From: a virus
Strand: one strand, 5' to 3'
IMG/VR virus record: IMGVR_UViG_3300020463_002645
Coordinates: 1-35,501 of that record
Length of the DNA stretch: 35,501 nt
Part shown: in pieces, positions 878 to 33,681 of the stretch
Numbering within the stretch: position 1 is the stretch's first letter
How the letters are laid out: each line of letters starts with the position of its first letter
The notes under the pieces: generated by a model
Database searches by the model: none
The model's input: the letters and a program-made list of their open reading frames with translations, nothing else
What the model was told of the DNA's origin: nothing
Made by a program: the position numbers and the translations under genes

Positions 878-1798
878 ATGCAAAATTTTAAGGTCAAGGA
901 TTGTGATATTTTTTATTTGAGTTATGATGAGCCAAATGCAGAAAAAAATTATCATGACATATATCAAAAAGTTCCATGGGTAAAAAGAGTTCACGGTGTA
1001 AAAGGCTCAGATGCCGCTCACAAAGCCTGTGCAGAAAGATCAGATAAAGAAAGATTTATAACGGTAGATGGAGATAACATAATAAATGAAAAGTTTATTG
1101 ATGTATCTGTACCGTTTGATGATGATATTAATCTAGCAAATTGCGTAATAAGTTGGTGTGGATATAATGTTGTAAATGGATTGATATACGGCAATGGTGG
1201 ACTTAAATGTTGGCCAAAAGAATATGTTCTTAATATGAAGACTCACGAAAACGCTGATCCAGAAGACGTTGCTTCTCAAATAGATTTTTGTTGGGACATA
1301 AGATATCTACAAATGAACCACACTTACAGTGATGTATACAACAATCATACACCAGGGCAAGCCTGGAGAGCAGGTTTCAGAGAGGGAGTGAAAATGAGTC
1401 TTGATAGAGGTGCTAGAGTACCTATAGAAGAATTTAAAAAGAATCATTGGAAAAATTTAAATCGAATGTATATTTGGCAAATGGTCGGTGCAGATGTTGA
1501 AAATGGTATATGGGCAGTGTACGGCGCAAGGCAAGGCACTTATATGACAATGTGTACTGACTGGAATATTGTGCATACAAGAGATTTTGAATATCTAAAT
1601 GAGATGTGGCGAGATATTGAAAGCAAAATTTCGTTAAATAGCATTGAGGAAGAGATAATAAAGTTGGGTAACGACCTAATTGGAGAATTAGATATTCCTA
1701 TATCGCCAAAACCGTTGGATCCCCAGCAAAGTTCATTTTTTAAGAAAGTTTACAAAAATCCTTCCAGGGGAGTTGAGAGTTTTATCTCAAAAGAGTAA
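878..1798 (+). CDS. GT-A-like glycosyltransferase (306 aa)
   Basis: Probably a nucleotide-sugar-dependent glycosyltransferase. The N-terminus (residues 9-14, CDIFYL) begins a Rossmann-like strand. It is followed by VKRVHGVKG (35-43), then RFITVDGDN with an Asp-Gly-Asp at 64-66, which fits the metal/nucleotide-binding DxD motif of GT-A enzymes. NVVNGLIYGNGGLKCWP (97-113) and TPGQAWRAGFREG (158-170) follow and probably form the acceptor side. The same block order appears in the gene at 7068, so the two are paralogues. The start follows the upstream stop directly, with GAGGA nearby; the stop overlaps the next ATG (TAATG). The C-terminal 70 residues have no counterpart in the shorter paralogue. 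Donor and acceptor sugars cannot be inferred. Confidence 0.75.
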   Translation: MQNFKVKDCDIFYLSYDEPNAEKNYHDIYQKVPWVKRVHGVKGSDAAHKACAERSDKERFITVDGDNIINEKFIDVSVPFDDDINLANCVISWCGYNVVNGLIYGNGGLKCWPKEYVLNMKTHENADPEDVASQIDFCWDIRYLQMNHTYSDVYNNHTPGQAWRAGFREGVKMSLDRGARVPIEEFKKNHWKNLNRMYIWQMVGADVENGIWAVYGARQGTYMTMCTDWNIVHTRDFEYLNEMWRDIESKISLNSIEEEIIKLGNDLIGELDIPISPKPLDPQQSSFFKKVYKNPSRGVESFISKE

Positions 1799-4005
1799 TG
1801 GATAAAAAAGTTGTTTGTGCGATACCATGGATGCATTTGGCATTCGAACCTAGCGGCAAAGTAATACCTTGTTGTTTAACATCAACATTTGATTACTTTT
1901 CGGGCGATCTAAAAACACAAGCATTACCGGAAATTTGGAATAGTAAAAATCAACGTGACCTACGTTTGCAAATGATGAAAGGTGAAAAACCTGAAATTTG
2001 TAAAAAGTGCTACAAACAAGAAGACGCCACAGGACAGTCCGGACGTACACATCACAACAAACAAAACGAAGATTTAATAAAATTAATTCCGCAAATAACT
2101 GAAAAAAACGGTGCAGTGCCTGACATGAAATTGCGTTATTGGGATTTTAGATTTAGCAACTTATGTAATTTTAAATGTAGATCATGTGGCCCGAGATATA
2201 GTTCTTCTTGGGTACCTGATGCAAAAAAAATGGGTTGGATTACCGAACACGCAGAAAAAAAAGTTTTAAATATTGACGAAACAACCTTTCCTTCAAAACT
2301 TGATTTCCTCGAAGAGCAAGTAAAATACGTTAAAAGAATTTACTTTGCAGGCGGCGAACCCTTAATGATGCCAGAACATTGGAAAGTTCTTGAAATGTTA
2401 GATGCTAATAAGAAATATGATGTGCGTATTGATTACAATACAAATGTTTCTAAATTAGATTATGCAGGTAAAAATGTTATTGATTATTGGAAAAAATGGG
2501 ATACACACAACGGACCAAGAATAAATGTTTGGCCCAGTATCGACGAAATAGGACCACGTGCAGAAGTTATTCGTTCAGGCACAGTGTGGTCACGTGTAGA
2601 GGCAAATTTGAAAAAACTTGCAGGTTTAAAAAAACATATTGCTATAGAACCATCAATCACAGTGGGAGCAATGAACGTATTCAGATTACCAGAAATTATT
2701 AATCATTTGACTGAACTCGGTGTTATTGGTGAGCACCCTTATCAAAGTTATGCAAACTTTTATTTAAATTTATTGGAATGGCCATCACATTTCCATATGC
2801 ACATCTTAAGTAATAAATTTAGAGCACAAATAAAAGAAAAATTAAAGAAATTTGTTGGCGAATATAATAAGAAATGGGACACAGACATAGGCCCTAGATT
2901 CGATCAAATATTTGTAGAACTAGATAGATCACACAACGTAAAACAGGCGAAACTTTTTCTAGAAAAGACTAATCAATTAGACACAATTAGAGACGAGTGG
3001 ACTTTTAAAACTATTCCAGAGATGGAAGATGTGAGAAGATTTTACCCAGGTATCTATAAAAGGTCAGAGATGATAGAAATTAAGCAGGCCAAATCTGCAT
3101 TTTACTTAACATGGGTCATTAATAATATTTGTACAAACAAATGCAGTTATTGTCCACCTAGTCTGCATAACGGAAAAAATCATCACTATGATTGGAATCA
3201 GGCCAAAAAATTTATTAACAACTTGTTTGCAAAACATAAAAGCATACATTGTTCTATCGCAGGCGGTGAGCCGTCGGTAAGTCCATTTTTTCCTGAACTT
3301 GTAAAAATGGTTCACAATAAAGGACACACTGTTGGAGTCACAACTAATCTTGCAAAGAGTATTAGATATTGGAAAGAAGTATCACCATATCTAACTTACG
3401 TATCTTCAAGTTATCATCCTAGTTTCGAAGACAAAGAATTTTTAAAAAAAGTTTTGGTGTGTGCAAGAAGCACTAAAACTTATGTTAGAGTAATGATGGA
3501 TACAAGACATTGGGACAAGGCAGTTGATATGTACGAAACTTGTAAAGAATTAAAATATGTGACAACAGAGCCGGTAAAAATATTAGATTGGAATGAAGGT
3601 GATTTTACAGGATGTGATTACAACAAAGAACAACTGGAATGGTTTGAGAAAAATTCAAAAATTAATGGCGAATTCAAAGAAGCGATCTATAGAAAAAACA
3701 ACATAGGTGGCCATTTTTATTATTCAGATGGTACAATAGATGAATATGGCGATGCAAACGAACTTGTTAATAAAGGGAAAAATGATTTTAGAGGTTGGTC
3801 TTGCGACATAGGATTGAAAAGTTTATTTGTAGATTACAATGGAAGCATAAGGAAAGCAAATTGTAGACAGGGAGATATAGTAGGTTATCTGCAAAAACAA
3901 GATGACATTGTTTGGCCAAAGCAACCTGAGATATGTTCGATTAAAAGATGCCATTGTTCAACAGATGTATATGTAGACAAAAGGAAACCAAAATATGGAC
4001 AGTAA
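1798..4005 (+). CDS. Double radical SAM protein: twitch-rSAM fused to rSAM-twitch (735 aa)
   Basis: Two complete radical SAM enzymes in one chain. Residues 1-75 carry an N-terminal cysteine module (C7, C25-C26, C68 and C71, with a PEIWNS helix between) of the N-terminal twitch/SPASM type, expected to hold an auxiliary Fe-S cluster. The first radical SAM core has C123/C127/C130 and AGGEP at 184-188. That half closes near 400-420 with a 'KTIPEMEDVRRFYP' segment like the C-termini of the stand-alone members downstream. A second core follows: C445/C449/C452, AGGEP at 488-492, and a C-terminal module with C669, C689, C713, C718 and C720, matching the stand-alone gene at 8697 in layout. The join therefore looks like a fusion of two family members. 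Substrate unknown. It overlaps both neighbours (1 and 11 bases). Confidence 0.92.
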   Translation: MDKKVVCAIPWMHLAFEPSGKVIPCCLTSTFDYFSGDLKTQALPEIWNSKNQRDLRLQMMKGEKPEICKKCYKQEDATGQSGRTHHNKQNEDLIKLIPQITEKNGAVPDMKLRYWDFRFSNLCNFKCRSCGPRYSSSWVPDAKKMGWITEHAEKKVLNIDETTFPSKLDFLEEQVKYVKRIYFAGGEPLMMPEHWKVLEMLDANKKYDVRIDYNTNVSKLDYAGKNVIDYWKKWDTHNGPRINVWPSIDEIGPRAEVIRSGTVWSRVEANLKKLAGLKKHIAIEPSITVGAMNVFRLPEIINHLTELGVIGEHPYQSYANFYLNLLEWPSHFHMHILSNKFRAQIKEKLKKFVGEYNKKWDTDIGPRFDQIFVELDRSHNVKQAKLFLEKTNQLDTIRDEWTFKTIPEMEDVRRFYPGIYKRSEMIEIKQAKSAFYLTWVINNICTNKCSYCPPSLHNGKNHHYDWNQAKKFINNLFAKHKSIHCSIAGGEPSVSPFFPELVKMVHNKGHTVGVTTNLAKSIRYWKEVSPYLTYVSSSYHPSFEDKEFLKKVLVCARSTKTYVRVMMDTRHWDKAVDMYETCKELKYVTTEPVKILDWNEGDFTGCDYNKEQLEWFEKNSKINGEFKEAIYRKNNIGGHFYYSDGTIDEYGDANELVNKGKNDFRGWSCDIGLKSLFVDYNGSIRKANCRQGDIVGYLQKQDDIVWPKQPEICSIKRCHCSTDVYVDKRKPKYGQ

Positions 4006-4729
4006 AACTTTTTTCATACAAGGATGTAGCCATTGTAGTGGTGCAGAATTACCTGGAGATACAGGCCATGGTTTAGTATACGATAAAAGTTGGCCAAATA
4101 AAGTAGCCACAAATTTAAATGCAGGAGAAATTGTAAATCGTGCTTCACCTGGCAGTTCAAATGACTGGATTATTGAGGATACAATAAATTATGTGCTTGA
4201 TAATAAAGATAAAGATATTTTTGTATTACTTGGGTTCACAGGATCGGATAGAATATATTTAAAACATCTGGCGTATCAAAATTCAAAACCATATGGAAGG
4301 GCAATTTTAACGCCTGGAATAATCGACGACAAAAAATTCCAGGATGAAAATCTACTCACAGAACATCATGATATGTATAAAAGTTTACTCCAAACAGACT
4401 GGGGCACATGGCACCAAATACAACTTAGATTTTTTAGACAAGTAAATTATATTCAAACCTTTTTACAAGATAACAATATTCCTCATTTGTTCGTAACAAC
4501 AATATTTCCACTAGATGCTAGGTATAAAAAATTTGGTGAATTTAAATGGCTATATGATAAAATGGATAAGAAAAATTTATATGGAGATTTTAGCAAAGAC
4601 ACTTGTTACTACGAAATACTTAAAGATAAGTTTAGGGTAAACGAAATGTTTCATATAGGACAAGAAGGACAAGATCATTTTGCGAATTTAATTACGGAGT
4701 ATATAAAAACAAATGATTTACTACACTAA
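3995..4729 (+). CDS. SGNH-hydrolase-like protein (244 aa)
   Basis: Likely an SGNH/GDSL-fold esterase or deacetylase-like protein. The N-terminus FFIQGCSHCSGAEL puts Ser12 right after the first strand, in the block I position of the fold. RASPGSSND (49-57) supplies a block II Gly/Asn. LLGFTGSDR (78-86) resembles block III of phage versions, and MFHIGQEGQDHF near residues 218-229 resembles the C-terminal His block. The usual Asp two residues before the catalytic His (DxxH) is not clear, so activity is uncertain. The start has an AGGAA ribosome binding site and overlaps the double radical SAM gene by 11 bases; the end overlaps the next gene by 17. In glycan clusters such enzymes often remove or transfer O-acetyl groups, which fits the neighbours but is inference. 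Confidence 0.65.
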   Translation: MDSKTFFIQGCSHCSGAELPGDTGHGLVYDKSWPNKVATNLNAGEIVNRASPGSSNDWIIEDTINYVLDNKDKDIFVLLGFTGSDRIYLKHLAYQNSKPYGRAILTPGIIDDKKFQDENLLTEHHDMYKSLLQTDWGTWHQIQLRFFRQVNYIQTFLQDNNIPHLFVTTIFPLDARYKKFGEFKWLYDKMDKKNLYGDFSKDTCYYEILKDKFRVNEMFHIGQEGQDHFANLITEYIKTNDLLH

Positions 4730-5930
4730 AAATCCTGAAAATTATTTAAGGGATGGATGGAAAACATATCCCAGTGAGTATCGTGAATTAAATGAAGAAA
4801 TAAAATTTCCGTTTGTGGAACATTTTACATCTAGTCTCACAATTCCTGATGAAAATTTTATATGGTTTTTTGAATTAAGACACCCGTTTATTTTAAAAAA
4901 TTTAGACAAGTATGTTTTTCCACCAGAAATAGTAGATGCAATTAAGGAAAAAACCTGTAAGATATTAGTGCTAGGGTGGATGGAAAATTGGGGCATAAAA
5001 GAATTTAAAATTCTATTCGAATATTTTAGTAAACAGATACCAGATCTTGAACACAATGATTTTGTATATGCAACTGCCAGTGCAGAAGATTACAGTGATG
5101 AAAAGTTTAATCATTTCTATGCTAACAGGATGGAAAGACAATGGCATGAAATTTTTTATCCTAAAATTGCCAGAAAAGCAAAAAAATTTAAAAAAATAAA
5201 AGATTTTATTTGTCTTAATCGTAGACCTGCATGGCATAGATTTTTGACTGTCTCATTGCTCTGGGAATGGAGGCGTTTAGGCTACATCAGTCATCTCGCT
5301 AAAGATTCAAAACTAAATGATGATTACTATGGTACGGAAACAGCAGAAAATCATTACACAAAGGCATTTGATGTGTTTAAATCATGCGATCCGTTTCCGC
5401 ATACGATTAGCAAAAAATTTACACGACAAGTTGAAAAAGAATTGCCTATGATTTTAAAACATGATAGACATAAAATACTAGAAGGAGCAAATCCAAACAA
5501 AGACACAGATGCACCAAAATATCTTGAATCATGGATCCATATTGTCACAGAAACAAGAATGGAAACGCATACGGAAATGGACGGCTTGGTAGATAGATTT
5601 GTAAGTGAAAAAACTTTTAAACCCATGTTTTACAAGCAACCTTTTATAATTGTAGGACAATACAAGATACTAGAATCATTGCGGAAATGGGGATATAAAA
5701 CCTATGGTACTTTTTTTAATGAAGAATATGATAACACTAAAAATGGTTCCTTTCGTACGCAAAAAGCGATACAAAATATGCAAAGGTGGTTGAGTCTCAC
5801 GCCGGCGGGCAAGGAAGCAATGTACAAAGAACATGAACACGTGTTTGAACATAATTTTAATCATCTAATGAAAAGGGGAAAAGAATTAGAAAAGAATTTA
5901 CACGAGCACATACAAGGAGTTTTCAAATGA
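4713..5930 (+). CDS. Putative glycosyltransferase with SEK..KP motif (405 aa)
   Basis: Probably a glycosyltransferase of the broad GT-B-like class that includes fucosyltransferase- and exostosin-like phage and mimivirus proteins. FICLNRRPAWHR (165-176) forms the start of the nucleotide-sugar-binding half. FVSEKTFKPMFYKQPFIIVG (296-315), followed by a GYKTYGTFFNEEYD-type segment to residue 340, is the recognisable C-terminal block, in which Glu299 and Lys300 would contact the donor. The last 60 residues are charged and helical. It overlaps the upstream gene by 17 bases and the downstream ATG by 4 (ATGA), so it is translationally coupled to the sugar dehydrogenase that follows. The exact GT family was not resolved; an inactive or regulatory homologue is possible. 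Confidence 0.6.
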   Translation: MIYYTKNPENYLRDGWKTYPSEYRELNEEIKFPFVEHFTSSLTIPDENFIWFFELRHPFILKNLDKYVFPPEIVDAIKEKTCKILVLGWMENWGIKEFKILFEYFSKQIPDLEHNDFVYATASAEDYSDEKFNHFYANRMERQWHEIFYPKIARKAKKFKKIKDFICLNRRPAWHRFLTVSLLWEWRRLGYISHLAKDSKLNDDYYGTETAENHYTKAFDVFKSCDPFPHTISKKFTRQVEKELPMILKHDRHKILEGANPNKDTDAPKYLESWIHIVTETRMETHTEMDGLVDRFVSEKTFKPMFYKQPFIIVGQYKILESLRKWGYKTYGTFFNEEYDNTKNGSFRTQKAIQNMQRWLSLTPAGKEAMYKEHEHVFEHNFNHLMKRGKELEKNLHEHIQGVFK

Positions 5931-8497: not shown

Positions 8498-8704
8498 ATG
8501 ACATTGCGAGAACTACAAAAAGAAAGTGCCAGAGTCTTGGCGACAATAGATTCTACAAGTGTTGGTCTGTCAAAGTTTAATAAACTTGCACACCATAACA
8601 GCCTCAATTGGTATAAGGCAGTCGTTCAAAGTTATATAGATCAATATGGTGATTTGCCAAGCAAGGTTGGGCCTGGAAAGGATGTAAAGTTAATCAATGT
8701 TTAA
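8498..8704 (+). CDS. Small hypothetical protein (68 aa)
   Basis: Not recognised. I start it at the ATG at 8498, one base after the upstream stop; a TTG at 8483 in frame would add five residues but has no better support. The protein is basic and mostly helical at first (TLRELQKESARVLATID), then NWYKAVVQSYIDQYG, and ends in a Gly/Pro/Lys-rich tail (LPSKVGPGKDVKLINV). It has no cysteine, signal peptide or membrane segment. The reading frame overlaps the next radical SAM gene by 8 bases, so its position is constrained. Small proteins beside radical SAM enzymes can be substrate peptides or recognition proteins, but no leader/core organisation is evident here. Confidence 0.6.
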   Translation: MTLRELQKESARVLATIDSTSVGLSKFNKLAHHNSLNWYKAVVQSYIDQYGDLPSKVGPGKDVKLINV

Positions 8705-9629: not shown

Positions 9630-10698
9630 AATTGAAGATATAAAAAGTATACACTTAGAAATAACACAGAATTGCCAGGCGGCCTGTCCGATGTGCGATC
9701 GTAATATGAATGGCGGTGCAGTGAATCCACATATTAATTTAGATGAATTATCCTTAGATGATTGTAAAAATATATTCACGCCTGCATTTATCAGGCAACT
9801 TTCTAAATTGTATATGTGTGGAAACTTGGGTGACCCAATAATAGCAAAAGACACACTAGAAGTTTTTGAGTATTTTAGAGAACATAATCCAAATATTTGG
9901 TTGAATATGCATACAAACGGTGGCGCAAGAGAAGAGGATTGGTGGAAAGATATTGCTAAAGTTTTTAAACAAAAAGGAGATATAACTTTTTCTGTGGACG
10001 GCCTCGAGGATACGAATCATCTGTATAGACAAAATGTTCAATGGGCAAAAGTAGAAAGGTCTATCAAAGCATTTACAGGCGCAGGTGGCAGGGCAAGATG
10101 GGACTTTTTAATTTTTCAACATAATCAACATCAAGTTGAACAGGCCAAACTTGTTGCGAAACAATGGGGCGTCGAAAAGTTTGTATCAAAAAAAACTGGG
10201 AGATTTATAAGTGCTAAATCAGAAAAGAAAGAACAACATCAAGCAGTCAATAGAAAAGGACAAGATACTACTACTTTAAAAAAGCCAGAGGTCAAATATC
10301 AAAATAAAGAATTAAGCAAATACGATTTGCTAATTGAAAAATATGGATCTATGGATTCATATTATGACGTAGTACCAATAAATTGCAAAGTCAAGGATGA
10401 AGGTAATTTGTTTATTACAGCAGAAGGACTTGCACTGCCCTGCTGTTGGACCGCGGGTAGGATGTATAAATGGTGGCAAAAAGATCCAAAGGTGGAACAA
10501 ATTTGGCAGTTTATAGATCATGTTGGCGGAAAAGAATCATTGGACGCAACTAAAGGACTTGAAAAGGTATTTGAGACAGGAATATTTGACCTCATTGAAA
10601 ATAGTTGGGAAACCAAAGGCTGTTCAAACGGAAAACTTAAAGTATGTGCAATGAAATGTGGAAAGGAGTTTGATCCTTTTGGATCACAATACGTGTAA
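9622..10698 (+). CDS. Radical SAM protein, GNxGDP variant (358 aa, architecture B)
   Basis: C18/C22/C25 (CQAACPMC) form the radical SAM cluster site. The usual GGEP is replaced by CGNLGDPI (66-73). Further class marks are HTNGGAREEDWW, SVDGLEDTNHLYRQNVQW and FQHNQHQVEQAK, followed by a C-terminal cysteine module starting at INCKVKDEGNLFITAEG and LPCCWTAG and ending with CSNGKLKVCAMKCGKEF. I chose the ATG at 9622 rather than the first in-frame codon at 9565, because it gives an 8-base overlap with the preceding gene and starts in the same place relative to the cysteine motif as the other B members (MYKFYDIED, MYHSVESIKD). It is followed directly by the alternative oxidase (TAATG). The reaction is unknown. 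Confidence 0.92.
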   Translation: MYKIEDIKSIHLEITQNCQAACPMCDRNMNGGAVNPHINLDELSLDDCKNIFTPAFIRQLSKLYMCGNLGDPIIAKDTLEVFEYFREHNPNIWLNMHTNGGAREEDWWKDIAKVFKQKGDITFSVDGLEDTNHLYRQNVQWAKVERSIKAFTGAGGRARWDFLIFQHNQHQVEQAKLVAKQWGVEKFVSKKTGRFISAKSEKKEQHQAVNRKGQDTTTLKKPEVKYQNKELSKYDLLIEKYGSMDSYYDVVPINCKVKDEGNLFITAEGLALPCCWTAGRMYKWWQKDPKVEQIWQFIDHVGGKESLDATKGLEKVFETGIFDLIENSWETKGCSNGKLKVCAMKCGKEFDPFGSQYV

Positions 10699-11303
10699 TG
10701 AAACACAAACGCCCTAGAGATTTTGGAGACAAGTGTGCATTATGGTTCACGATGAGACTGCGATGGATTGCTGACACATTTTTTGCTAAACGTTACGGAC
10801 ACAGAGCAGTCGTGCTAGAAACTGTTGCAGGTGTGCCGGGCATGGTTGCAGGTATGTGGAATCACTTACGTAGTTTAAGGAAGATGAAACCAGATGACAG
10901 AGGTTGGATCAGAACTTTACTAGAAGAAGCAGAAAATGAACGTATGCATCTAATGATATTCATTGAGATAGCAAAACCCAATTGGTTGGAACGTTGGATG
11001 ATAATTACTGCACAATTTTTATTCTGGCACTTTTATATGTTCCTTTATATTTTCTTTCCTAAGGTTGCACATAGAATGGTTGGTTACTTTGAAGAACAAG
11101 CAGTCATAAGTTATACATCTTATCTCAAAGCAATTGAATTAGGCAAAATCAAAAATATTGATGCTCCTGAAATTGCAAAAAATTATTATGCGTTAAAACC
11201 AGATGCAAAACTACGAGACGTGGTGATCGCTGTCAGAGAAGATGAGCGAGGCCATGCACAAGAAAATCACAGAATGGCGGATGTAATAGAGGAAGACAAG
11301 TAA
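10698..11303 (+). CDS. aox: Alternative oxidase, mitochondrial/proteobacterial type (201 aa)
   Basis: Diiron quinol oxidase that reduces O2 to water without proton pumping, attached to the inner face of the membrane. All iron-ligand motifs are present: LETVAGVPGMVAGMWNHL (Glu41), LEEAENERMH (Glu81 and His84), YFEEQAVISYTSYL (the Glu132/133 region) and REDERGH (Glu183 and His186). A hydrophobic stretch at 101-120 (IITAQFLFWHFYMFLYIFF) is the monotopic membrane-binding region. The wording follows mitochondrial/proteobacterial AOX, not the plastid PTOX carried by cyanophages. It lacks the long N-terminal extension of mitochondrial enzymes and starts within about 40 residues of the first ligand, so it looks complete for a bacterial form. 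It sits inside the radical SAM operon, sharing one base with the previous stop. Confidence 0.95.
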   Translation: MKHKRPRDFGDKCALWFTMRLRWIADTFFAKRYGHRAVVLETVAGVPGMVAGMWNHLRSLRKMKPDDRGWIRTLLEEAENERMHLMIFIEIAKPNWLERWMIITAQFLFWHFYMFLYIFFPKVAHRMVGYFEEQAVISYTSYLKAIELGKIKNIDAPEIAKNYYALKPDAKLRDVVIAVREDERGHAQENHRMADVIEEDK

Positions 11304-11927
11304 ATGAAACAATTACCAGTATATTTTTTTAACACAGATCCTTATCCTAAAATAGCAAATAAAAATTTTAAGTTTGGCAAAGTTGATAACGTAGACACGG
11401 TGTTTACTTTAGCATCTGGATTCAAAAGATACAAATATAGTATTTTATATCAACCAAAGAAACTTGTTGTTTATGATCTTAATCCTTATGCAGTTGCACT
11501 ACATAGGCGCATTGACGATCTTGAAAAAATTAACTTTGAAGCAATATGCGAATTATATTACGAATACGAGAAAGAAAAAATTAATGCAGTGTTATCTGAT
11601 TACAAGTTGCCAAATCTTATTACCCTATCTGTTGAAAAGCAATTGAAACTGAATTGGGATATTGAATGCCAACGTTGGGGAGGTGAAGAAAACTTTGTGA
11701 CTGCTTTTTTATATTTCAAGCAACAAAAAAGGATTTACGAAACACTAGATGTAATACAAGGAAGAGATGATATTAAAAAACATCTAGGTAAAACAAATTT
11801 TATACACATAAGCAATATTTTTTCTTGGACGCATAATCCTAAGTTTGATCGAATTGCCTTAAAAAAAGAGAAAGAAGAATTTGGAGAATTTTGTTGGAAG
11901 AATAAAATAGGAGTAGCAAATGATTAA
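11304..11927 (+). CDS. Hypothetical Rossmann/methyltransferase-like protein with ASGFK motif (207 aa)
   Basis: Not assigned to a known family. Residues 30-60 read VDTVFTLASGFKRYKYSILY, then KKLVVYDLNPYA, the layout of a Rossmann beta-alpha-beta unit with an acidic residue (Asp58) at the end of strand 2, as in SAM-dependent methyltransferases. The protein at 30608 contains the same core (IDTFIGVASGFKPLLFL then MYLFDTNKDM), so the two define a small family. The C-terminal part has GKTNFIHISNIFSWTHNP, the place where methyltransferases carry strand 4/5. The ATG directly follows the upstream stop, and a GAGGAAG lies upstream. It overlaps the next gene by 8 bases. Function remains unknown; a methyltransferase role is inference from fold-like pattern only. 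Confidence 0.7.
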   Translation: MKQLPVYFFNTDPYPKIANKNFKFGKVDNVDTVFTLASGFKRYKYSILYQPKKLVVYDLNPYAVALHRRIDDLEKINFEAICELYYEYEKEKINAVLSDYKLPNLITLSVEKQLKLNWDIECQRWGGEENFVTAFLYFKQQKRIYETLDVIQGRDDIKKHLGKTNFIHISNIFSWTHNPKFDRIALKKEKEEFGEFCWKNKIGVAND

Positions 11928-12585
11928 TGATATATTAAACTTTATTAAAGATAATAAAAATTACGGGTTACCGTGGAAAGCACAATCATTGCAAGAAAAA
12001 TGGAAAGATCCTGAAGTTAGTCATATTAAGATAGATTTCAATATAGACACAAATGATATGTATTGCGAATGCGTAGCAGTTGCAGATAGATTTGTAGATC
12101 ATAGAAAGGGTGACTATGCACACGATGGTTGGCAAGGCTTGACGTTACATGGAATCTCGGAAGGTAAGACTGAAGATTTCAATGCATATGGATTCAAAAC
12201 ATTTGAAGATGCAAATTATCATTGGACAGAAGTATCTAAACAGACACCTCATATTAAAAATTTTGTTGAATCATTACCGTATGAATACCTAAAAAGGGTA
12301 CGTATAATGAAATTAAAGGCAGGTGGATACATTGCTCCACATAATGATGGCGAAGGTAGATTAATGGGTCCACTTAATTTTGCAATAAATCAGCCAGAGG
12401 ATTGTGAAATGGTTTTTGAAAATAAAGGTTTAGTTCCTTTTTCAAACGGAGTTGGATTTTATTTAGACGTTGGTAGGCGGCATTGTGTAGTGAATAATAG
12501 TAATGAAGATAGGTATCATCTTATCATTCACGGTAGACGCAACAATGACTTTTATACCAGATACGACGACAAAAAAAACGGATAA
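11920..12585 (+). CDS. Aspartyl/asparaginyl beta-hydroxylase-like Fe(II)/2OG oxygenase (221 aa)
   Basis: The second half is a clear double-stranded beta-helix of the Asp/Asn hydroxylase kind. RVRIMKLKAGGYIAPHND (127-144) has the metal-binding His141-x-Asp143. It is followed by GPLNFAINQPEDCEMVF, GLVPFSNGVGFYLDVG, RRHCVVNNS with the distal His188, and EDRYHLIIHG with Arg198 for 2-oxoglutarate binding. The N-terminal 120 residues are less conserved and may shape the substrate site. AGGAG precedes the start. It closes the sub-operon with the oxidase and is separated by 10 bases from the long radical SAM run. The gene at 33055 is a close relative in architecture. The substrate could be a peptide side chain, but sugars or lipids cannot be excluded. 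Confidence 0.82.
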   Translation: MINDILNFIKDNKNYGLPWKAQSLQEKWKDPEVSHIKIDFNIDTNDMYCECVAVADRFVDHRKGDYAHDGWQGLTLHGISEGKTEDFNAYGFKTFEDANYHWTEVSKQTPHIKNFVESLPYEYLKRVRIMKLKAGGYIAPHNDGEGRLMGPLNFAINQPEDCEMVFENKGLVPFSNGVGFYLDVGRRHCVVNNSNEDRYHLIIHGRRNNDFYTRYDDKKNG

Positions 12586-23681: not shown

Positions 23682-24807
23682 TGTAGAATCAATAAAAGAT
23701 ATGCACGTTGAAATTACAAACAGATGTAATGCGGCGTGTCCTATGTGTGCAAGGAATCACTTTGGCGGAGCAACTAAAAAAGATTTAAGGCTTGACGAAT
23801 GGTCAACAGAAGACGTGAGAAGAATATTTGATCCTCGTTTAAAAAATTTAGAAAACGTTATGTTTTGTGGTACACATGGTGATCCTGTTGTTGCGGCTAA
23901 TAGTTTAATTGCAATAAATCATATTAAACATAGTACAGATGCCACTGTTGAATTTTATTCAAATGCAAGTTTGAGGAAGCCGACTTGGTGGCGAGAACTG
24001 GGTTCATTGATGTCTACGAGGAAACCCGATCATTGGCACTATAACAAACACGACCTTGCTATATTCAGCATAGACGGATTAGAGGACACTAACCACTTGT
24101 ACAGGAGAAAAACAAATTTCAAGAATATTATTAAGAATGCAGAAGCATTTATAGGTGCTGGAGGATTTGCTAGGTGGGACTTTATTGTATTCAAACACAA
24201 TCAACATCAAGTAGAAGAAGCAAAGAAATTAGCGGATAAGATGGGATTCAAAGAATTTAGGATAAGAAAAACAGCAAGATTCACTTATAGTCCCGATGGT
24301 CCGATGAAATGGAGAGTTCAAGACAAACACAAAAACATAGAATACTACTTGCAACCACCCACAGATAAAAATTATTACAACGCTGAACAAGACAAGTGGA
24401 CTGAAATAACAAAAACTGATGAAGGTAAACATGATTATTTGAATAACACACAAATTTCTTGTCTATACAAAAATAAATTTAGGAGAATTTATGTCAATGC
24501 ATATGCGGATGTTTTTCCTTGTTGTTACATAAGCAACGACGTATATCCTGGGAAAAATTCAATAGTCAAAGATTCTCAACAAAAAATATTTGACAGGTAC
24601 CAAAAGCACTTTAATAGCCTAAGACATCATTCGTGGGATGACATATTAGAACACGAGTGGTTTGCAAACGAAATTGAAAACAGTTGGAACACAAATTTAG
24701 AAGGAGGAAGGTTAATGAGATGTGCGAGGACGTGTGGAGCAGGGTTCAAACCCATCACTACACAGAGTCACACACAAAAAATTAACTCGGTAAGTACAGT
24801 ATCATGA
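23671..24807 (+). CDS. Radical SAM protein, GTHGDP variant (378 aa, architecture B)
   Basis: Core C19/C23/C26 (CNAACPMC), FCGTHGDPVV in the GGEP position, then SIDGLEDTNHLYRRKTNF and FKHNQHQVEEAK. The C-terminal module includes ISCLYKNKFRRIYVNAYADV, FPCCYISNDVYPG and RCARTCGAGF. The Asn seen in other B members (GNxGDP) is Thr here. The start is taken at 23671, where GAGG lies upstream and the overlap is 11 bases, and not at the in-frame ATG at 23647. It overlaps the next gene by 4 bases. Confidence 0.92.
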   Translation: MYHSVESIKDMHVEITNRCNAACPMCARNHFGGATKKDLRLDEWSTEDVRRIFDPRLKNLENVMFCGTHGDPVVAANSLIAINHIKHSTDATVEFYSNASLRKPTWWRELGSLMSTRKPDHWHYNKHDLAIFSIDGLEDTNHLYRRKTNFKNIIKNAEAFIGAGGFARWDFIVFKHNQHQVEEAKKLADKMGFKEFRIRKTARFTYSPDGPMKWRVQDKHKNIEYYLQPPTDKNYYNAEQDKWTEITKTDEGKHDYLNNTQISCLYKNKFRRIYVNAYADVFPCCYISNDVYPGKNSIVKDSQQKIFDRYQKHFNSLRHHSWDDILEHEWFANEIENSWNTNLEGGRLMRCARTCGAGFKPITTQSHTQKINSVSTVS

Positions 24808-25976
24808 GTGATTTTAAAGATTGGCCAAAGGAGGCTTGCCTAGCACCATTGACATCATACCTTGTAGGTACCAGTGGTAAGTACAGGCCTTGTTGTTGGT
24901 ACACAGAAAAGTTAGATTCTAATCATGTCAGAGCCGCGGAACAAATGTTGACATTGCAAGAATACAGAGAACAAATATTATTTCCTATGTATGAGGAAAT
25001 GAAAAAAGGAAAATATCCAGATGCCTGTAAAAGATGCGCCTTGCCCGGGTTCAAACGTTCACAAAATTATGAAAGATTTAGACCCGACGTAGAACAGATT
25101 GAAAAAACCAAAGAAGTAAGATATATAGACCTGCGTTTTTCTAACCTGTGTAATTTAGGTTGTGTGATGTGCAATACTGGCTCCAGCAATCAATTTCACA
25201 AACAAGCAGACCAAGGAAAGTATATGCCTGAGAGTGTGTATTGGATGGGACCAAAAACTAGGCGTAGTAAACATTATACCTGGACCGCCAATAAAAAAGT
25301 AATGACAGAACTTTACAAACATTTAGAAACTGCCACACACATCTATATTACAGGAGGTGAGCCAAGCATCAATCCGGATGTGTTAAAAATGATGGAGTAT
25401 TGCAGAGATAAAGGATTTAACAATCGTATTAAACTTGAATTTAACACTAATTGCACCAATGCAAACGATAAGTTTGTAGATCTACTGCATTCCTTTACTA
25501 CTCAAGTGATGTTTAGCATAGATGCTGTAGGCGAACTTGGCGAGGCCGTAAGGTATCCTAGTAAGTGGGACTATGTTCAAAAAGCAGTTTGGGAAATGAT
25601 AAGCAGAGGTGGACCAAGGGCAAAATTTACTTGGGCACCATCTATCCATGTTTACAACTTTTTTAAATTACATGAACTTGTGGCATATTTTAAAAAAATT
25701 GAGAAGCAATGGTTAGATAAAGATATCAATACGAATTGGAATGTGATATTCCAACCATACTACCAAAACGTCAACAATATTCCTAAAGATCTCTTCAATG
25801 AGTACATACACAAACACAAAGCAGAACTTGGATCATCGTTGATAACAAAGTTAAATCAAAAGAAACATGGCCTGGAAAATGAAAATATGGATTGGGAAAA
25901 AACATTAGAAATTGGAAGAAAATGGTTTGCAACGAGAGGATATAATCCTAAACTAACAGGAATACCGGGGATATAA
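24804..25976 (+). CDS. Twitch radical SAM protein (390 aa, architecture A)
   Basis: Cysteine module C12, C30-C31 (RPCCWY), C75/C78, then core C116/C120/C123 (CNLGCVMC) and TGGEP near 183-187. MFSIDAVGELGEAVRYPSKW follows. RPCCWY is shared with the gene at 16712 (RPCCWYRED), and the core resembles the gene at 18051, so these three form a branch within class A. The C-terminal end lacks the IPEFxxLL signature. ATGA overlap at the start; one base separates its stop from the next ATG, with GGGGAT serving as ribosome binding site for that gene. Confidence 0.92.
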   Translation: MSDFKDWPKEACLAPLTSYLVGTSGKYRPCCWYTEKLDSNHVRAAEQMLTLQEYREQILFPMYEEMKKGKYPDACKRCALPGFKRSQNYERFRPDVEQIEKTKEVRYIDLRFSNLCNLGCVMCNTGSSNQFHKQADQGKYMPESVYWMGPKTRRSKHYTWTANKKVMTELYKHLETATHIYITGGEPSINPDVLKMMEYCRDKGFNNRIKLEFNTNCTNANDKFVDLLHSFTTQVMFSIDAVGELGEAVRYPSKWDYVQKAVWEMISRGGPRAKFTWAPSIHVYNFFKLHELVAYFKKIEKQWLDKDINTNWNVIFQPYYQNVNNIPKDLFNEYIHKHKAELGSSLITKLNQKKHGLENENMDWEKTLEIGRKWFATRGYNPKLTGIPGI

Positions 25977-25977
25977 A

Positions 25978-27144
25978 ATGCAAAATGAAAACAAAGCAGT
26001 AGCACACTACTTCAAATACAACTATTCTGGTGCATTATCAGTAGACTGGTACATAGGCAAAAGGTGTAACTTTGACTGTACCTATTGCGTAGACTATCTA
26101 CACGACAACGTCAGTAAGCACGTGCCTTTAGAAAACATGAAAAAATTAGTTGATATCATATACGAGAGAGAAAAAGAAAATGTGTTTTGGAGCCTAACAG
26201 GCGGAGAGCCTACTGTAAATCCAAAGTTTTTAGATCTTTGCAAATACATTAAAGAAAAAGGAGCAAGGTTTATAAGTGTCACCACAAACGGCAGTAGGAA
26301 AGCGGAATACCTTTGTGATTTATATCAATACCTGGACGGAATAACATTGTCTTTCCATTTCGAACATATGCAACACAGGATTGATGAATTCATTGAAAAG
26401 TGTATCAAATTAGAAGACTGGAGACGTGCATGGAATGAAGAACAAAAGAAAAATCCTAATTTTCCAGATCATGACAGAGGTTACATACCAAAAACATTAA
26501 TATTACGATTCATGGTATACCCAGGACAATTTGCTAACATGGAAAGAATGGAGAAGGCTTTTTTAGATCATGGTATTACAAACATAGAACATAGATACAT
26601 CAGGGCACCACATGGTGGATCTAATGAACTTATGCCAACAAAAAAATTAGATTACAGCAAAGACAATGACAATATGGAATTGAATCAACTTACCGATATT
26701 CCAACAAAATTAAAAAGTATTGTTCAAAAACAAGAACAATTTTACACAGTAGAGGAAAAAGAAAAAATTAAAGTAAGATACGAAAACAAAAGTGCTGACA
26801 AAAAAAAATTAAAAAGATGGTTCGAAAAAGAAGGAGAATTACTTGATCGAGACTATCATTATAACGAGTTAAATTGGGATAAAGGAAATAATTTTTTAGG
26901 TTGGCAGTGTTATGCTGGAATGAAGCACGTCAAGGTAACTCCACCGGGAGACATCTATATAGGAAGTTGTCACGTTGGCGGAAAAAGAGGTAATATATAT
27001 GAGAAAGATACAATTGACTTGCCAAAGGTTCCTGTAATATGTCCAAAGAACAGATGTACAGATAACACAGATTTAAAAGTACCTAAAATAAAAAATGAAA
27101 AATACTATCATCTGATCAAGGACATGATGGAATGGCGAGGTTAA
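25978..27144 (+). CDS. Radical SAM protein, C-terminal twitch/SPASM type (388 aa, architecture C)
   Basis: Core C30/C34/C37 (CNFDCTYC) with LTGGEP, then VTTNGSRKAEYL and ITLSFHFEHMQHRIDEF. The C-terminal module starts at GWQCYAG and continues with VTPPGDIYIGSC and CPKNRCTDNTDLKVPK, the same layout as in the proteins at 8697 and 28451 and the second half of the protein at 1798. A charged 70-residue helical insert (about 230-300) makes it longer than the 8697 member. Four bases or fewer separate it from its neighbours on either side. Confidence 0.92.
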   Translation: MQNENKAVAHYFKYNYSGALSVDWYIGKRCNFDCTYCVDYLHDNVSKHVPLENMKKLVDIIYEREKENVFWSLTGGEPTVNPKFLDLCKYIKEKGARFISVTTNGSRKAEYLCDLYQYLDGITLSFHFEHMQHRIDEFIEKCIKLEDWRRAWNEEQKKNPNFPDHDRGYIPKTLILRFMVYPGQFANMERMEKAFLDHGITNIEHRYIRAPHGGSNELMPTKKLDYSKDNDNMELNQLTDIPTKLKSIVQKQEQFYTVEEKEKIKVRYENKSADKKKLKRWFEKEGELLDRDYHYNELNWDKGNNFLGWQCYAGMKHVKVTPPGDIYIGSCHVGGKRGNIYEKDTIDLPKVPVICPKNRCTDNTDLKVPKIKNEKYYHLIKDMMEWRG

Positions 27145-27147
27145 ATT

Positions 27148-28458
27148 ATGTTTTGCAAGATACCCTTTCATGGATTAAATTTACGTAATGACGGTACAAT
27201 AAGAACCTGTTGTAGTTCTATTGGCCAGATGCAAGGTATTAGAAATGACAACAACAAGCCTATTAATATAACCGACTTTGATAGTCTAAACACGGCGTTC
27301 AACAGTAAAGAATTAAAATCATTGAGAATATCCATGCTTCAAAATGACGAAGAAGGATATAAGAATCACTGTAAGCATTGTATACATCAAGAGTCTTTAG
27401 GCATTAATTCTGTAAGAACAAAACACAATAAGTTTTATAGGGACAGTAATCCTTTGGTTAACGATGACGGCAGTATGGACGCAGATAATTTAAAAATGTT
27501 AGATGTAAGGCTCGATACAGTGTGTGATCAGGCTTGTATTATGTGTGGACCTTATAGTAGCACCATGTGGGAAAAAGAAATTAAAAAAGATATTAACAAA
27601 TGGTCAGGTAAAGTTGTTGACGAGTTCAATTGGGTACAGAAGTATAATAAAAATACTCTAACTCCTGAGCATCTTTTTGACAAATTACCTAATCTAAATC
27701 AAATTGAATTCAGAGGTGGGGAACCATTAGTTGATAAAAAAGTCATCCAACTTATAGATTATATGATTGATAAAGATTACGCAAAAAACATATACCTAAG
27801 TTTAGTGACAAATACGCAAAGTGCATCAAGAGATATTGTTAATAAACTCAAAAAATTTAAGGGAGGTATAATCAGATGTAGTGTTGATGCAATAGGTAAA
27901 AAAAATGAGTACCACAGATATCGTAGCAAATGGAACAAGATTGAACAAGGATTAACGAATTTATCAGATCTCGTACCAGCGAAGGAAGACAGACTATCAA
28001 CATTAGAAAGATTTCATGATAGGTGGTTGTTGATTATATTACCCACTATGACCACTTATAATACTTTGCAATGGAAAGAATATTTTGAATACTTTGATAA
28101 CTTTTTTGAACAAAACAATATGAGAGCCTTAATTGCATTGAACAGCATTAAAGATAGGCCAGAAATGTTTCATACCATTGTTGATTACGAAGCACGTATT
28201 AAACACGTGCAAGAACTTAAGAATTTACAAGGCAAACTTAAAATGCACCAATGGACTGACGGGTTCGGCCAACGTAATCTATCATACTTTAATAAATTAA
28301 TGAAGGCTTTATCTAGACCACAGGAAAAAAATTCTACAGAATTAGTTGAAAAGTTTTTAAAATGGTGTTATACTATAGAAATAAACAGAGAACAGAAAGT
28401 TTATGATTATTTTCCAGAACTTAAAATTTTGGAAAAACAAAGGGCATTATATGAATGA
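27148..28458 (+). CDS. Twitch radical SAM protein (436 aa, architecture A)
   Basis: Cysteine module C3, C21-C22, C75/C78, then core C126/C130/C133 (CDQACIMC; Asp replaces the usual Asn after the first Cys). FRGGEP follows, with the Arg-Gly-Gly-Glu seen also at 14016. IIRCSVDAIGKKNEYHRYRS comes after that, and the end YDYFPELKILEKQRALYE fits the class. The first Cys at residue 3 makes the module as short as possible, and there is no in-frame extension. GAGG precedes the ATG across a 3-base gap. It overlaps the next gene by 8 bases. Confidence 0.92.
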   Translation: MFCKIPFHGLNLRNDGTIRTCCSSIGQMQGIRNDNNKPINITDFDSLNTAFNSKELKSLRISMLQNDEEGYKNHCKHCIHQESLGINSVRTKHNKFYRDSNPLVNDDGSMDADNLKMLDVRLDTVCDQACIMCGPYSSTMWEKEIKKDINKWSGKVVDEFNWVQKYNKNTLTPEHLFDKLPNLNQIEFRGGEPLVDKKVIQLIDYMIDKDYAKNIYLSLVTNTQSASRDIVNKLKKFKGGIIRCSVDAIGKKNEYHRYRSKWNKIEQGLTNLSDLVPAKEDRLSTLERFHDRWLLIILPTMTTYNTLQWKEYFEYFDNFFEQNNMRALIALNSIKDRPEMFHTIVDYEARIKHVQELKNLQGKLKMHQWTDGFGQRNLSYFNKLMKALSRPQEKNSTELVEKFLKWCYTIEINREQKVYDYFPELKILEKQRALYE

Positions 28459-29575
28459 TTTGAAATGGAGTGACTATGATTTTACTAAAATCCCTTATGA
28501 TGAAATTGTTAAAGTCGGACAAAGGACGCTCTTATACAGAGATCTGTTTACTGTCAGTTGGCTTCTTGGTCGCTTTTGCAACTATCGTTGCAGTTATTGT
28601 TGGCCATACGCCAGATCAGATAAAAAAGATCACAGGCCAACAGAGTTATGTCTTTCTACGATCGATGAGATAAAGAGACAAGCACGTGACAATGGTTTTA
28701 ACAGTTTTCATTTTTCTCTCAGCGGTGGCGAGCCTACCTTTCACCCTGGCTACTTGGCCATTCTCGACCATCTCGGTGATGATGTTAGCAATACTAATTA
28801 CACTTCTGTTCACATGACAAGCAACTGCTCCAGAAACATGAAATGGTTTGAAGAATATGTCAAAAAAGTCGCACCGTTCCATAGAGCCAGTATCACGGCC
28901 TCATACCACAGGGAACACGTTAACACACAAGAAAAAAGAGAACAATTCGCAGACAAGTTATGCTTCGTCCAAGAACATGACGTACAAGTCACAATCAACC
29001 AAGTTATGGTTCCAGAATGGTTCGATGAACTATATGAGGAATCATTATATTTCCACAACAGAGGTATTAACGTTACGCTCAAACCTCAATCGGATCCAAC
29101 AGCGTCGAGAGTTGTTGAAGGGTACTCGAAAGAGATGCTTGACAAGTTATACAATGGAATGCCTCAGCGAGGATTCACAGAAGTCAAAAACAAATATGTC
29201 AGCAGACCTAAACCTCAGTTTCAATTACCTCCTACCACTGTTAGCAAAAACATGGAGAAGGTTCCTGCTCACTTTCAAGTAGAATTCGAGGACAATAAAG
29301 GAAAAAAATGGTATATGGATCAAGCAGAAAGATTTAATGCATTTAACTTTAATAGATTCAAAGGATGGAACTGTAATTCGGGTTATCAAGGAATAATAAT
29401 TCGGGAGCCTGATGGCTCTATAAAAAGATCGTATAGTTGTGACGACAAACCCTTGGGTAATATAGAGACTGGATTTAAATTATTCGATAAACCTCAGATG
29501 TGTATTACAAAATCGTGCGTATCTAGTGCTGACAGTAAGATTCCAAAGGAAAAAGTAAATGGCATCAATTTATAG
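28451..29575 (+). CDS. Radical SAM protein, C-terminal twitch/SPASM type (374 aa, architecture C)
   Basis: Core C43/C47/C50 (CNYRCSYC) with LSGGEPTFHPGY, then ASITASYHREHV and a C-terminal module GWNCNSG, SYSCDDKPLGNI and CITKSCVSSADSK. The spacing follows the other C members, though the final CxC of 8697 becomes a single Cys followed by Val-Ser-Ser. The start at 28451 gives an 8-base overlap; an in-frame ATG at 28403 would overlap by 56 and is less likely. Between about 28560 and 29100 G+C and codon use are visibly higher than in the neighbours, which may point to a different recent origin. It is the last gene of the radical SAM run. Confidence 0.9.
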   Translation: MNDLKWSDYDFTKIPYDEIVKVGQRTLLYRDLFTVSWLLGRFCNYRCSYCWPYARSDKKDHRPTELCLSTIDEIKRQARDNGFNSFHFSLSGGEPTFHPGYLAILDHLGDDVSNTNYTSVHMTSNCSRNMKWFEEYVKKVAPFHRASITASYHREHVNTQEKREQFADKLCFVQEHDVQVTINQVMVPEWFDELYEESLYFHNRGINVTLKPQSDPTASRVVEGYSKEMLDKLYNGMPQRGFTEVKNKYVSRPKPQFQLPPTTVSKNMEKVPAHFQVEFEDNKGKKWYMDQAERFNAFNFNRFKGWNCNSGYQGIIIREPDGSIKRSYSCDDKPLGNIETGFKLFDKPQMCITKSCVSSADSKIPKEKVNGINL

Positions 29576-32103: not shown

Positions 32104-33058
32104 ACATAGAATTTATCTGGACGAGATTCCAGAACAGCACACGATACAAACTTACATTCGTGAGTCAACAGATTGGTTAGAACAAAGATCAAAAGTTGAC
32201 TCACGTTTTTCTTACGACAATACTAAAATTTGGAAAGTTACAGGTCTTGATCTAGATCTAGAAAAACTTAAAGTATCTGCTTATGAGTCGTTTGACAAAT
32301 ATGGATCGGGCAAAGGACAAGGATATATTTTCATCACAAAGGAAAATCAGGAAGGTATTCCTACTGATGGTGTAGATGTTTACACTGCCATGAGCACAGT
32401 GTACAATCAAGACCACATAGAGAAACTTGATCCAAACAAAAGTACACTAGGATCTAGAACTAGGAGTAAGCAACAGTATTACAGAGGCGGCAAAAATAAA
32501 GAATCTGACAAACCAAATTTGCCAAGTGTCTTAAGAAACTCATATTATGATTCTTGGGCATTCACAAAAACAACACCTGCTTTGTCGCACGGAGAACTAG
32601 GTAAACTTTCAAGCAATATTTTAAGAAGAAGCCAAATACGGGGCAGGATGGGTATGAGTAATGCCAAAAATTATACATATGATAAATTTAAGTTTGATGG
32701 AAATTATAGTGTGAATCAAAGTTGGCACAGAGACGAACCTGTATATGAAAATTTAAGAATAATGATTCCTATTAATACCTCAGAAGAATTTAGACTAGGA
32801 ATAAAAGGCAGAGCAGAGGATATAAACCTTGATCCTGGAAGCGCCTATATATTAGATACTCATAATGTTCACAGGGTATATCCAATGAAGTATGGAACAA
32901 ATACCAGAATTACAGTGATATATGGTACAAGTCCGTGGTTTGATTATGATGAACAAAATCGTTGCTGGACCTCAAATGAATTTTATGGAAAATTACATCC
33001 TTTTGAAATGTTAAAGGAACATTATTTCAATGCAGATGTAGATGTAGAAGTGATATGA
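32099..33058 (+). CDS. Putative Fe(II)/2OG-type oxygenase (319 aa)
   Basis: The C-terminal third reads as a double-stranded beta-helix oxygenase. NQSWHRDEPVYENLRIMIPI contains His210-x-Asp212, DPGSAYILDTHNVHRVYP has the distal His258, and TRITVIYG has Arg270 at the 2-oxoglutarate position. The first 200 residues form a domain of unknown role, with a Lys/Arg-rich stretch (SRTRSKQQYYRGGKNKESDK). The start has no ribosome binding site and lies in an inverted repeat. It overlaps the next gene by 4 bases, so the two oxygenases are co-translated. It differs in wording from the Asp/Asn hydroxylases at 11920 and 33055 and may act on another substrate. Confidence 0.72.
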   Translation: MKHRIYLDEIPEQHTIQTYIRESTDWLEQRSKVDSRFSYDNTKIWKVTGLDLDLEKLKVSAYESFDKYGSGKGQGYIFITKENQEGIPTDGVDVYTAMSTVYNQDHIEKLDPNKSTLGSRTRSKQQYYRGGKNKESDKPNLPSVLRNSYYDSWAFTKTTPALSHGELGKLSSNILRRSQIRGRMGMSNAKNYTYDKFKFDGNYSVNQSWHRDEPVYENLRIMIPINTSEEFRLGIKGRAEDINLDPGSAYILDTHNVHRVYPMKYGTNTRITVIYGTSPWFDYDEQNRCWTSNEFYGKLHPFEMLKEHYFNADVDVEVI

Positions 33059-33681
33059 TAAAAGACTTTATAAAACAAAATGACTTTGTAAAAGAGTATT
33101 CATTAGAAAATTATTCAGATTACGAACAAGTAATTAGAAACAAGGTTGGATATATCAAAGTAAATTTTGATTTTCCTGCTTTACTTTTTATGGATGAATG
33201 TATAAGTTTGTTTGACAAGAGAAAACCTTTCACGTACACAAGACATCAGGAACTGCCAGATGCTCCAGGATGGGCCGGTGTTATTTTAGCAGATAACGGC
33301 AAACCGAGGGCAACGCCGATGTCAGAAGCACCTAAGTTAGTGGAATGGTTCAAAAGCCACGAATGTTTTGACTTTTCAAACAAAGATAAAACTAGGATAC
33401 ACATACACTATTTAGAACCAAAGTCATTTATACCTATACACCAAGATTACGAAAATGATATGTGTAATGGTTTAAATTTTGCTATAACACAACCACCAGG
33501 CTGTAAATTTTATGTTGAAGATTACGGAGTGATACCTTTCAGCCAACCGGGAGATGTTTATCTATGCCAGATAGGCAAAAGACATTGTGTATATAATGAT
33601 AGTGATGAGATAAGAATTCATATATTACCAAAAGGTCCTTACCTTGACAAACAAAAAATTCTTAAGTATATAAACCCTTAA
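33055..33681 (+). CDS. Aspartyl/asparaginyl beta-hydroxylase-like Fe(II)/2OG oxygenase (208 aa)
   Basis: Same architecture as the gene at 11920. RIHIHYLEPKSFIPIHQDYE has His129-x-Asp131; NGLNFAITQPPGCKFYVEDY, GVIPFSQPGDVYLCQIG, GKRHCVYNDS with His177, and EIRIHIL with Arg187 follow. Compare FAINQPEDCEMVF, VPFSNGVGF and RRHCVVNNS in the other protein. The N-terminal 110 residues diverge, suggesting a different substrate. It starts with an ATGA overlap and converges on the minus-strand gene, their 3' ends overlapping by 20 bases. It is the last + strand gene in the window. Confidence 0.82.
   Translation: MIKDFIKQNDFVKEYSLENYSDYEQVIRNKVGYIKVNFDFPALLFMDECISLFDKRKPFTYTRHQELPDAPGWAGVILADNGKPRATPMSEAPKLVEWFKSHECFDFSNKDKTRIHIHYLEPKSFIPIHQDYENDMCNGLNFAITQPPGCKFYVEDYGVIPFSQPGDVYLCQIGKRHCVYNDSDEIRIHILPKGPYLDKQKILKYINP

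Follow-up and report, generated by a model that had tools for sequence, protein, structure and literature searches.

Two radical SAM domains in a single polypeptide are known from FO synthase FbiC, in which they are fused and cooperate, while elsewhere they occur separately as CofG and CofH (PMC11917521). Among phages, radical SAM cassettes are found near tail fibres and glycosyltransferases in the host recognition clusters of pelagimyophages, which are rich in glycosyltransferases (PMC7029224), and 12 radical SAM genes have been reported from a T4-like phage genome (PMC5332604). The portions of these two phage papers available to us do not describe pairing or fusion of the two enzyme types discussed here, which we call A (twitch domain ahead of the radical SAM domain) and C (twitch domain behind it). 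A literature search directed at fusions of radical SAM enzymes returned none.

The stretch of DNA analysed, hereafter the window, is a 35,501-base record of a marine virus of bacteria. Its gene at 1798-4005 (2208 bases, plus strand) forms one uninterrupted frame of 735 amino acids with no internal stop. The first-pass annotation had read it as two radical SAM enzymes of different architecture in one chain, and frame, motifs and family matches agree; the two-part layout was kept, but its limits of residues 1-420 and 430-735 had to be redrawn, with a short tail/linker between the halves (Table 1). Both CxxxCxxC and both GGEP motifs are unbroken, and each half has the CxxxCxxC, the GGE and the PF04055 match expected of the superfamily (Radical_SAM, 67.5 bits over the chain in two stretches, the best at residues 440-603). 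The likeness to FbiC is one of layout only, i.e., two radical SAM domains per chain that are separate elsewhere; unlike FbiC, both halves of the fusion carry extra Cys-rich, twitch-like regions. No CofG, CofH or FbiC model matched either half at E values up to 0.001 in the complete match lists. The window as a whole holds 17 radical SAM genes between 1798 and 29575 (18 domains including the fusion, three architectures, 35 kb), against the 12 given for the T4-like genome. Two aspartyl/asparaginyl beta-hydroxylase-like genes (PF05118) lie within (11920-12585) and after (33055-33681) this array.

Table 1. Coordinates of the fusion gene, its parts, its neighbours and the other A>C pairs in the window.
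Feature	Position	Strand	Basis
GT-like (glycosyltransferase-like) gene with DGD motif; stop overlaps fusion ATG by 1 nt	878..1798	+	homologues fused to A elsewhere
A half, residues 1-413	1798..3036	+	NF033640 match; model pLDDT 83, pTM 0.84
Putative auxiliary-cluster cysteines of A half: C7, C25, C26, C68, C71	1816..2010	+	alignment, Pfam SPASM 7-72, BtrN twitch
First radical SAM motif CNFKCRSC, residues 123-130	2164..2187	+	motif, alignment
GGEP of A half (SAM-binding), residues 185-188	2350..2361	+	motif, alignment
A tail/linker, residues 414-424	3037..3069	+	comparison with L009
AAAAGG, Shine-Dalgarno-like candidate, 6 nt before internal ATG	3058..3063	+	read in sequence
In-frame ATG (Met425)	3070..3072	+	aligned with stand-alone C starts and ATGA-overlap relatives
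C half, residues 425-735 and stop	3070..4005	+	Pfam Radical_SAM 440-603; model vs BlsE
Second radical SAM motif CTNKCSYC, residues 445-452	3130..3153	+	motif, alignment
GGEP of C half (SAM-binding), residues 489-492	3262..3273	+	motif, alignment
Putative auxiliary-cluster cysteines of C half: C669, C689, C713, C718, C720	3802..3957	+	alignment
DUF6071 gene, overlaps fusion end by 11 nt	3995..4729	+	downstream neighbour
Second A>C pair: A 24804-25976; C 25978-27144	24804..27144	+	radical SAM gene survey
Third A>C pair, overlapping: A 27148-28458; C 28403-29575	27148..29575	+	radical SAM gene survey

The A half belongs, over its full length, to the N_Twi_rSAM family (NCBIfam NF033640; 366 bits where the cut-off is 170, residues 4-411 on model positions 2-396), with an N-terminal twitch/SPASM-like domain, a radical SAM domain and a helical tail in this order. 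The family model spans this half only, and the fusion adds a second radical SAM enzyme. The cysteines listed for the N-terminal domain, where the Pfam SPASM match lies, are invariant across 28 aligned A proteins. The only PDB sequence match of the A half is the auxiliary domain of the twitch radical SAM dehydrogenase BtrN (E 1.9e-5), which resembles the A N-terminus, but the twitch of BtrN is C-terminal whereas that of the A half precedes the radical SAM domain. The closing segment of the A half, LDxIRxExxFxxIPEM, resembles the ends of stand-alone A proteins, and the start of the C half, MIEIKQ...WVINNICTNKCSYC, resembles the starts of stand-alone C proteins; both likenesses had been pointed out from the first reading and were borne out.

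In the C half, the five C-terminal cysteines in Table 1 are invariant across 31 C proteins, and the structure model aligns over nearly its whole length with BlsE, an enzyme of blasticidin S biosynthesis and the top fold match (Z 17.7, 3.6 A over 263 residues, spanning 432-730). Both observations would fit a twitch/SPASM region, yet no SPASM model matched this half. Identity to BlsE is 12% and SkfB follows within 1 Z unit (Z 16.8); therefore, no function follows from this match. BlsE also comes first for the A radical SAM domain (Z 11.7), tied with anSME and others, and the fold matches of the two halves tie with the peptide-acting SkfB, anSME and SuiB. The full chain, whose modelling together with the halves had been proposed at the outset, gave a pLDDT of 85.6 and a pTM of 0.67 with well-modelled linker residues. 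A viral fold search retrieved relatives of the halves, and no fused relative was evident among the 50 matches listed. Models of other radical SAM families fell short of their cut-offs, i.e., viperin (NF038283, 180 bits; chain 58, C half 32), MoaA (TIGR02666, 284 bits; chain 42.6) and QueE (TIGR03963, 260 bits; chain 46.5). The prediction for each half is a [4Fe-4S] cluster that cleaves SAM, a single auxiliary cluster, and a radical reaction of its own. That both enzymes are active is inferred, as are the consecutive reactions, the sugar substrate and the biological role proposed below.

The same fusion was found intact on a contig of 46,940 bases (L009; L170, equally long and part of a MAG named Rickettsiales bacterium MED657, is apparently the same record) and on another contig of this MAG (L171, open frame of 742 codons); the MAG name is a label only and no indication of host. 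Between the window and L009/L170, the gene has 97.9% nucleotide identity, with 47 substitutions in 2208 positions, 35 of them at third codon positions, and no indel. The additional copies share about 97-98% identity with the window, and most of the differences are silent. Within the fused frame, both halves are under purifying selection (dN/dS of 0.057 for A and 0.101 for C). In a collection of 50,697 phages, no record covered most of the fused protein; a DNA search of annotated phages gave no close relative of the window, and their protein matches to the fusion were limited to Vibrio phages K566/K567 (22.5% identity) and one marine virus fragment. An alternative oxidase gene in the window (10698-11303; PF01786, 264 bits) is absent from the otherwise 97% identical L009. 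It is a single-gene insertion, both flanking alignments sharing 9 bases of L009, and a 56% identical gene, labelled hypothetical, occurs in phage C48C1 (Kyanoviridae).

Related phages carry homologues of the halves as separate neighbouring genes in the order A then C, as the first-pass annotation had proposed to look for. In L010 and L011, relatives with identities of 52-53% and about 46% to the fused halves are same-strand genes separated by a gene of 338-339 aa, which we call X. Within the flanking DNA examined, a C gene lies at most 3.5 kb downstream in 32 of 70 distinct A genes and a strong C gene lies upstream in none of the 70. Directly adjacent genes are ordered A>C 29 times and C>A 8 times across 77 non-redundant loci, against an expectation of 17 each when radical SAM labels are permuted within loci (29 was reached in 0 of 2000 shuffles), with the proviso that these counts are not independent, as loci share ancestry and many were retrieved via A or C matches. 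Separate pairs often overlap by 4-20 nt, and in L013, L026, L030 and L032 the A stop and C start share an ATGA; such overlaps suggest coupled translation. The identity of the window's two other A>C pairs to the fused halves is only about 30%, and no A gene immediately precedes the C gene at 8697. A cellular case comes from a MAG named Bdellovibrionales, whose A>C pair overlaps by 8 nt. A Bdellovibrionales MAG (L226, 6944-9175) also encodes, near an A>C pair, a double radical SAM protein of a second kind, which is 743 aa long and matches radical SAM and SPASM twice each.

A second A-C fusion was found on one contig (L074/L106). It has 794 aa and lies away from the window fusion in both the A and the C tree. 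Placing all fused proteins in one clade is rejected by the C tree (p 9.6e-5) though not by the A tree (p 0.50), and two independent origins are thus likely, not proven, from these trees. A profile scan with C of another 80 loci yielded no fusion beyond the known ones. A and C distances correlate weakly across 20 non-redundant pairs (Mantel r 0.26, p 0.037). The functional tie between A and C that was proposed from the fusion finds support in the ordered A>C neighbours of many phages, their overlaps, the placement of the two fused lineages on separate C branches and the two more A>C pairs in the window, and we are fairly confident that A and C are functionally paired.

The junction may record how the chain arose. 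Met425 stands where stand-alone C proteins start, and codons 414-430 have zero nucleotide differences between the window and L009. Its ATG is probably a fossil, or still used, C start codon. The simplest origin of the fusion would be a small frame change at an A/C gene overlap; separate pairs commonly overlap by 4-20 nt, so that one indel could join the two. We hypothesize that A and C were ancestrally neighbouring, overlapping genes in one phage operon, that a local reading-frame change at the overlap made them one chain, leaving the old ATG as Met425, and that each half would do its own radical reaction, one after the other on a single sugar or glycan intermediate. The fusion would also fit a need for co-expression, for a set stoichiometry or for a supply of electrons, or a near-neutral event that joined overlapping genes. 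We give consecutive action on one substrate an even chance.

The ease of such a joining also favours a simpler history, in which the frame change was tolerated and the halves serve one pathway with no direct substrate hand-over. About 70 A and 66 C proteins yielded only two fused lineages, their linkers are unlike (about 11 residues in the window and about 40 in L074), and free C may still be made because the ATG and the Shine-Dalgarno-like site persist at the old start. However, the A>C order conserved in many lineages and the fusions of A and C to other partners, described below, point to a working unit, and both halves evolve under purifying selection in the fused frame. We consider this history possible, if somewhat unlikely.

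The wider neighbourhood extends the pair. In the GT-like protein encoded upstream, D64 and D66 are invariant inside the DGD motif. PHROGs and Pfam give it no significant family match, and its similarity to GT2 is weak (E 0.097 to a single member), so the glycosyltransferase assignment rests on the motif and this similarity. GT-like-A fusions occur in L113, L115, L118, L120, L151 and L154, whereas L120, L126 and L144 have C joined to an X-like protein. In different phages, the fusion partners of A are thus GT-like proteins and C, and those of C are A and X, so that a module GT-like > A > (X) > C may be proposed. The GT-like-A protein of L151 (4297-7248, 984 aa) has a repetitive-looking N-terminal region before its GT-like and A parts. 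Another unusual protein, in L139 (3341-5782, 814 aa), has a C-type twitch region ahead of the radical SAM domain (model positions 236-314 at residues 482-565, then 16-196 at 609-809); the twitch seems to be permuted or part of a preceding unit. Upstream of the module lies a conserved tandem gene pair of about 280 aa, with tail-fibre-like genes farther upstream, and the window has a UDP-glucose/GDP-mannose dehydrogenase gene at 5927. Made up of the GT-like gene in front, A and C, and the X gene that other phages place between these two, the module would stand beside tail-fibre genes, and its sugar or glycan intermediate could serve surface glycan remodelling.

Sugar chemistry is suggested by several leads: BtrN for the A twitch, the BlsE fold matches, the dehydrogenase at 5927 and the glycosyltransferase-rich host recognition clusters (PMC7029224). 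It is a lead rather than a result, because BlsE is tied with SkfB, anSME and others, and we judge the chances of a sugar substrate to be about equal either way. A peptide or virion protein as substrate, in RiPP-like or tail-protein maturation, would suit the peptide-modifying SkfB, anSME and SuiB among the fold matches and the position of the module after tail-fibre-like genes. The nucleotide-sugar dehydrogenase and GT-like proteins nearby, and BtrN as the sole PDB sequence match of A, argue against it, and we regard it as unlikely. Alternatively, one half would do the main reaction, assisted by the other through electron transfer or substrate binding. The conserved auxiliary-cluster cysteines of each half are compatible with such a redox or regulatory partnership, and the radical SAM enzyme PapB is re-activated via intermolecular electron transfer (PMC10470005). 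Both halves, however, keep all SAM-cluster and GGEP residues, like their stand-alone relatives, and this division of labour seems quite improbable to us. An assembly or sequencing artefact joining two genes merits practically no credence, because two further contigs carry the fusion in frame with mostly silent differences, and a different fusion exists in L074.

Our preferred reading is that of a genuine bifunctional enzyme, whose A and C halves most likely act successively on one sugar or glycan intermediate, a view we hold as evenly balanced. Against it are the A tree, which allows one fused clade, the weak coevolution, the about half of A genes without a close C gene downstream in the flanking DNA covered, and the lack of a significant family match for the GT-like protein. 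A bolder version, which we find doubtful, is that A and C form an obligate radical machine in two steps, in which, throughout phages and in some bacteria, each partnered A makes an intermediate that its own C finishes, with the GT-like > A > X > C line building a novel sugar and phages stacking diverged copies to vary the surface glycan. Radical SAM clusters are recurrent in marine phages, and the literature searched gave no function for them. Together with the conserved A>C order, the fusion singles out a testable partner pair among the 17 radical SAM genes of this virus, and an opaque radical SAM cluster would thereby become a defined reaction of two enzymes that can be assayed.
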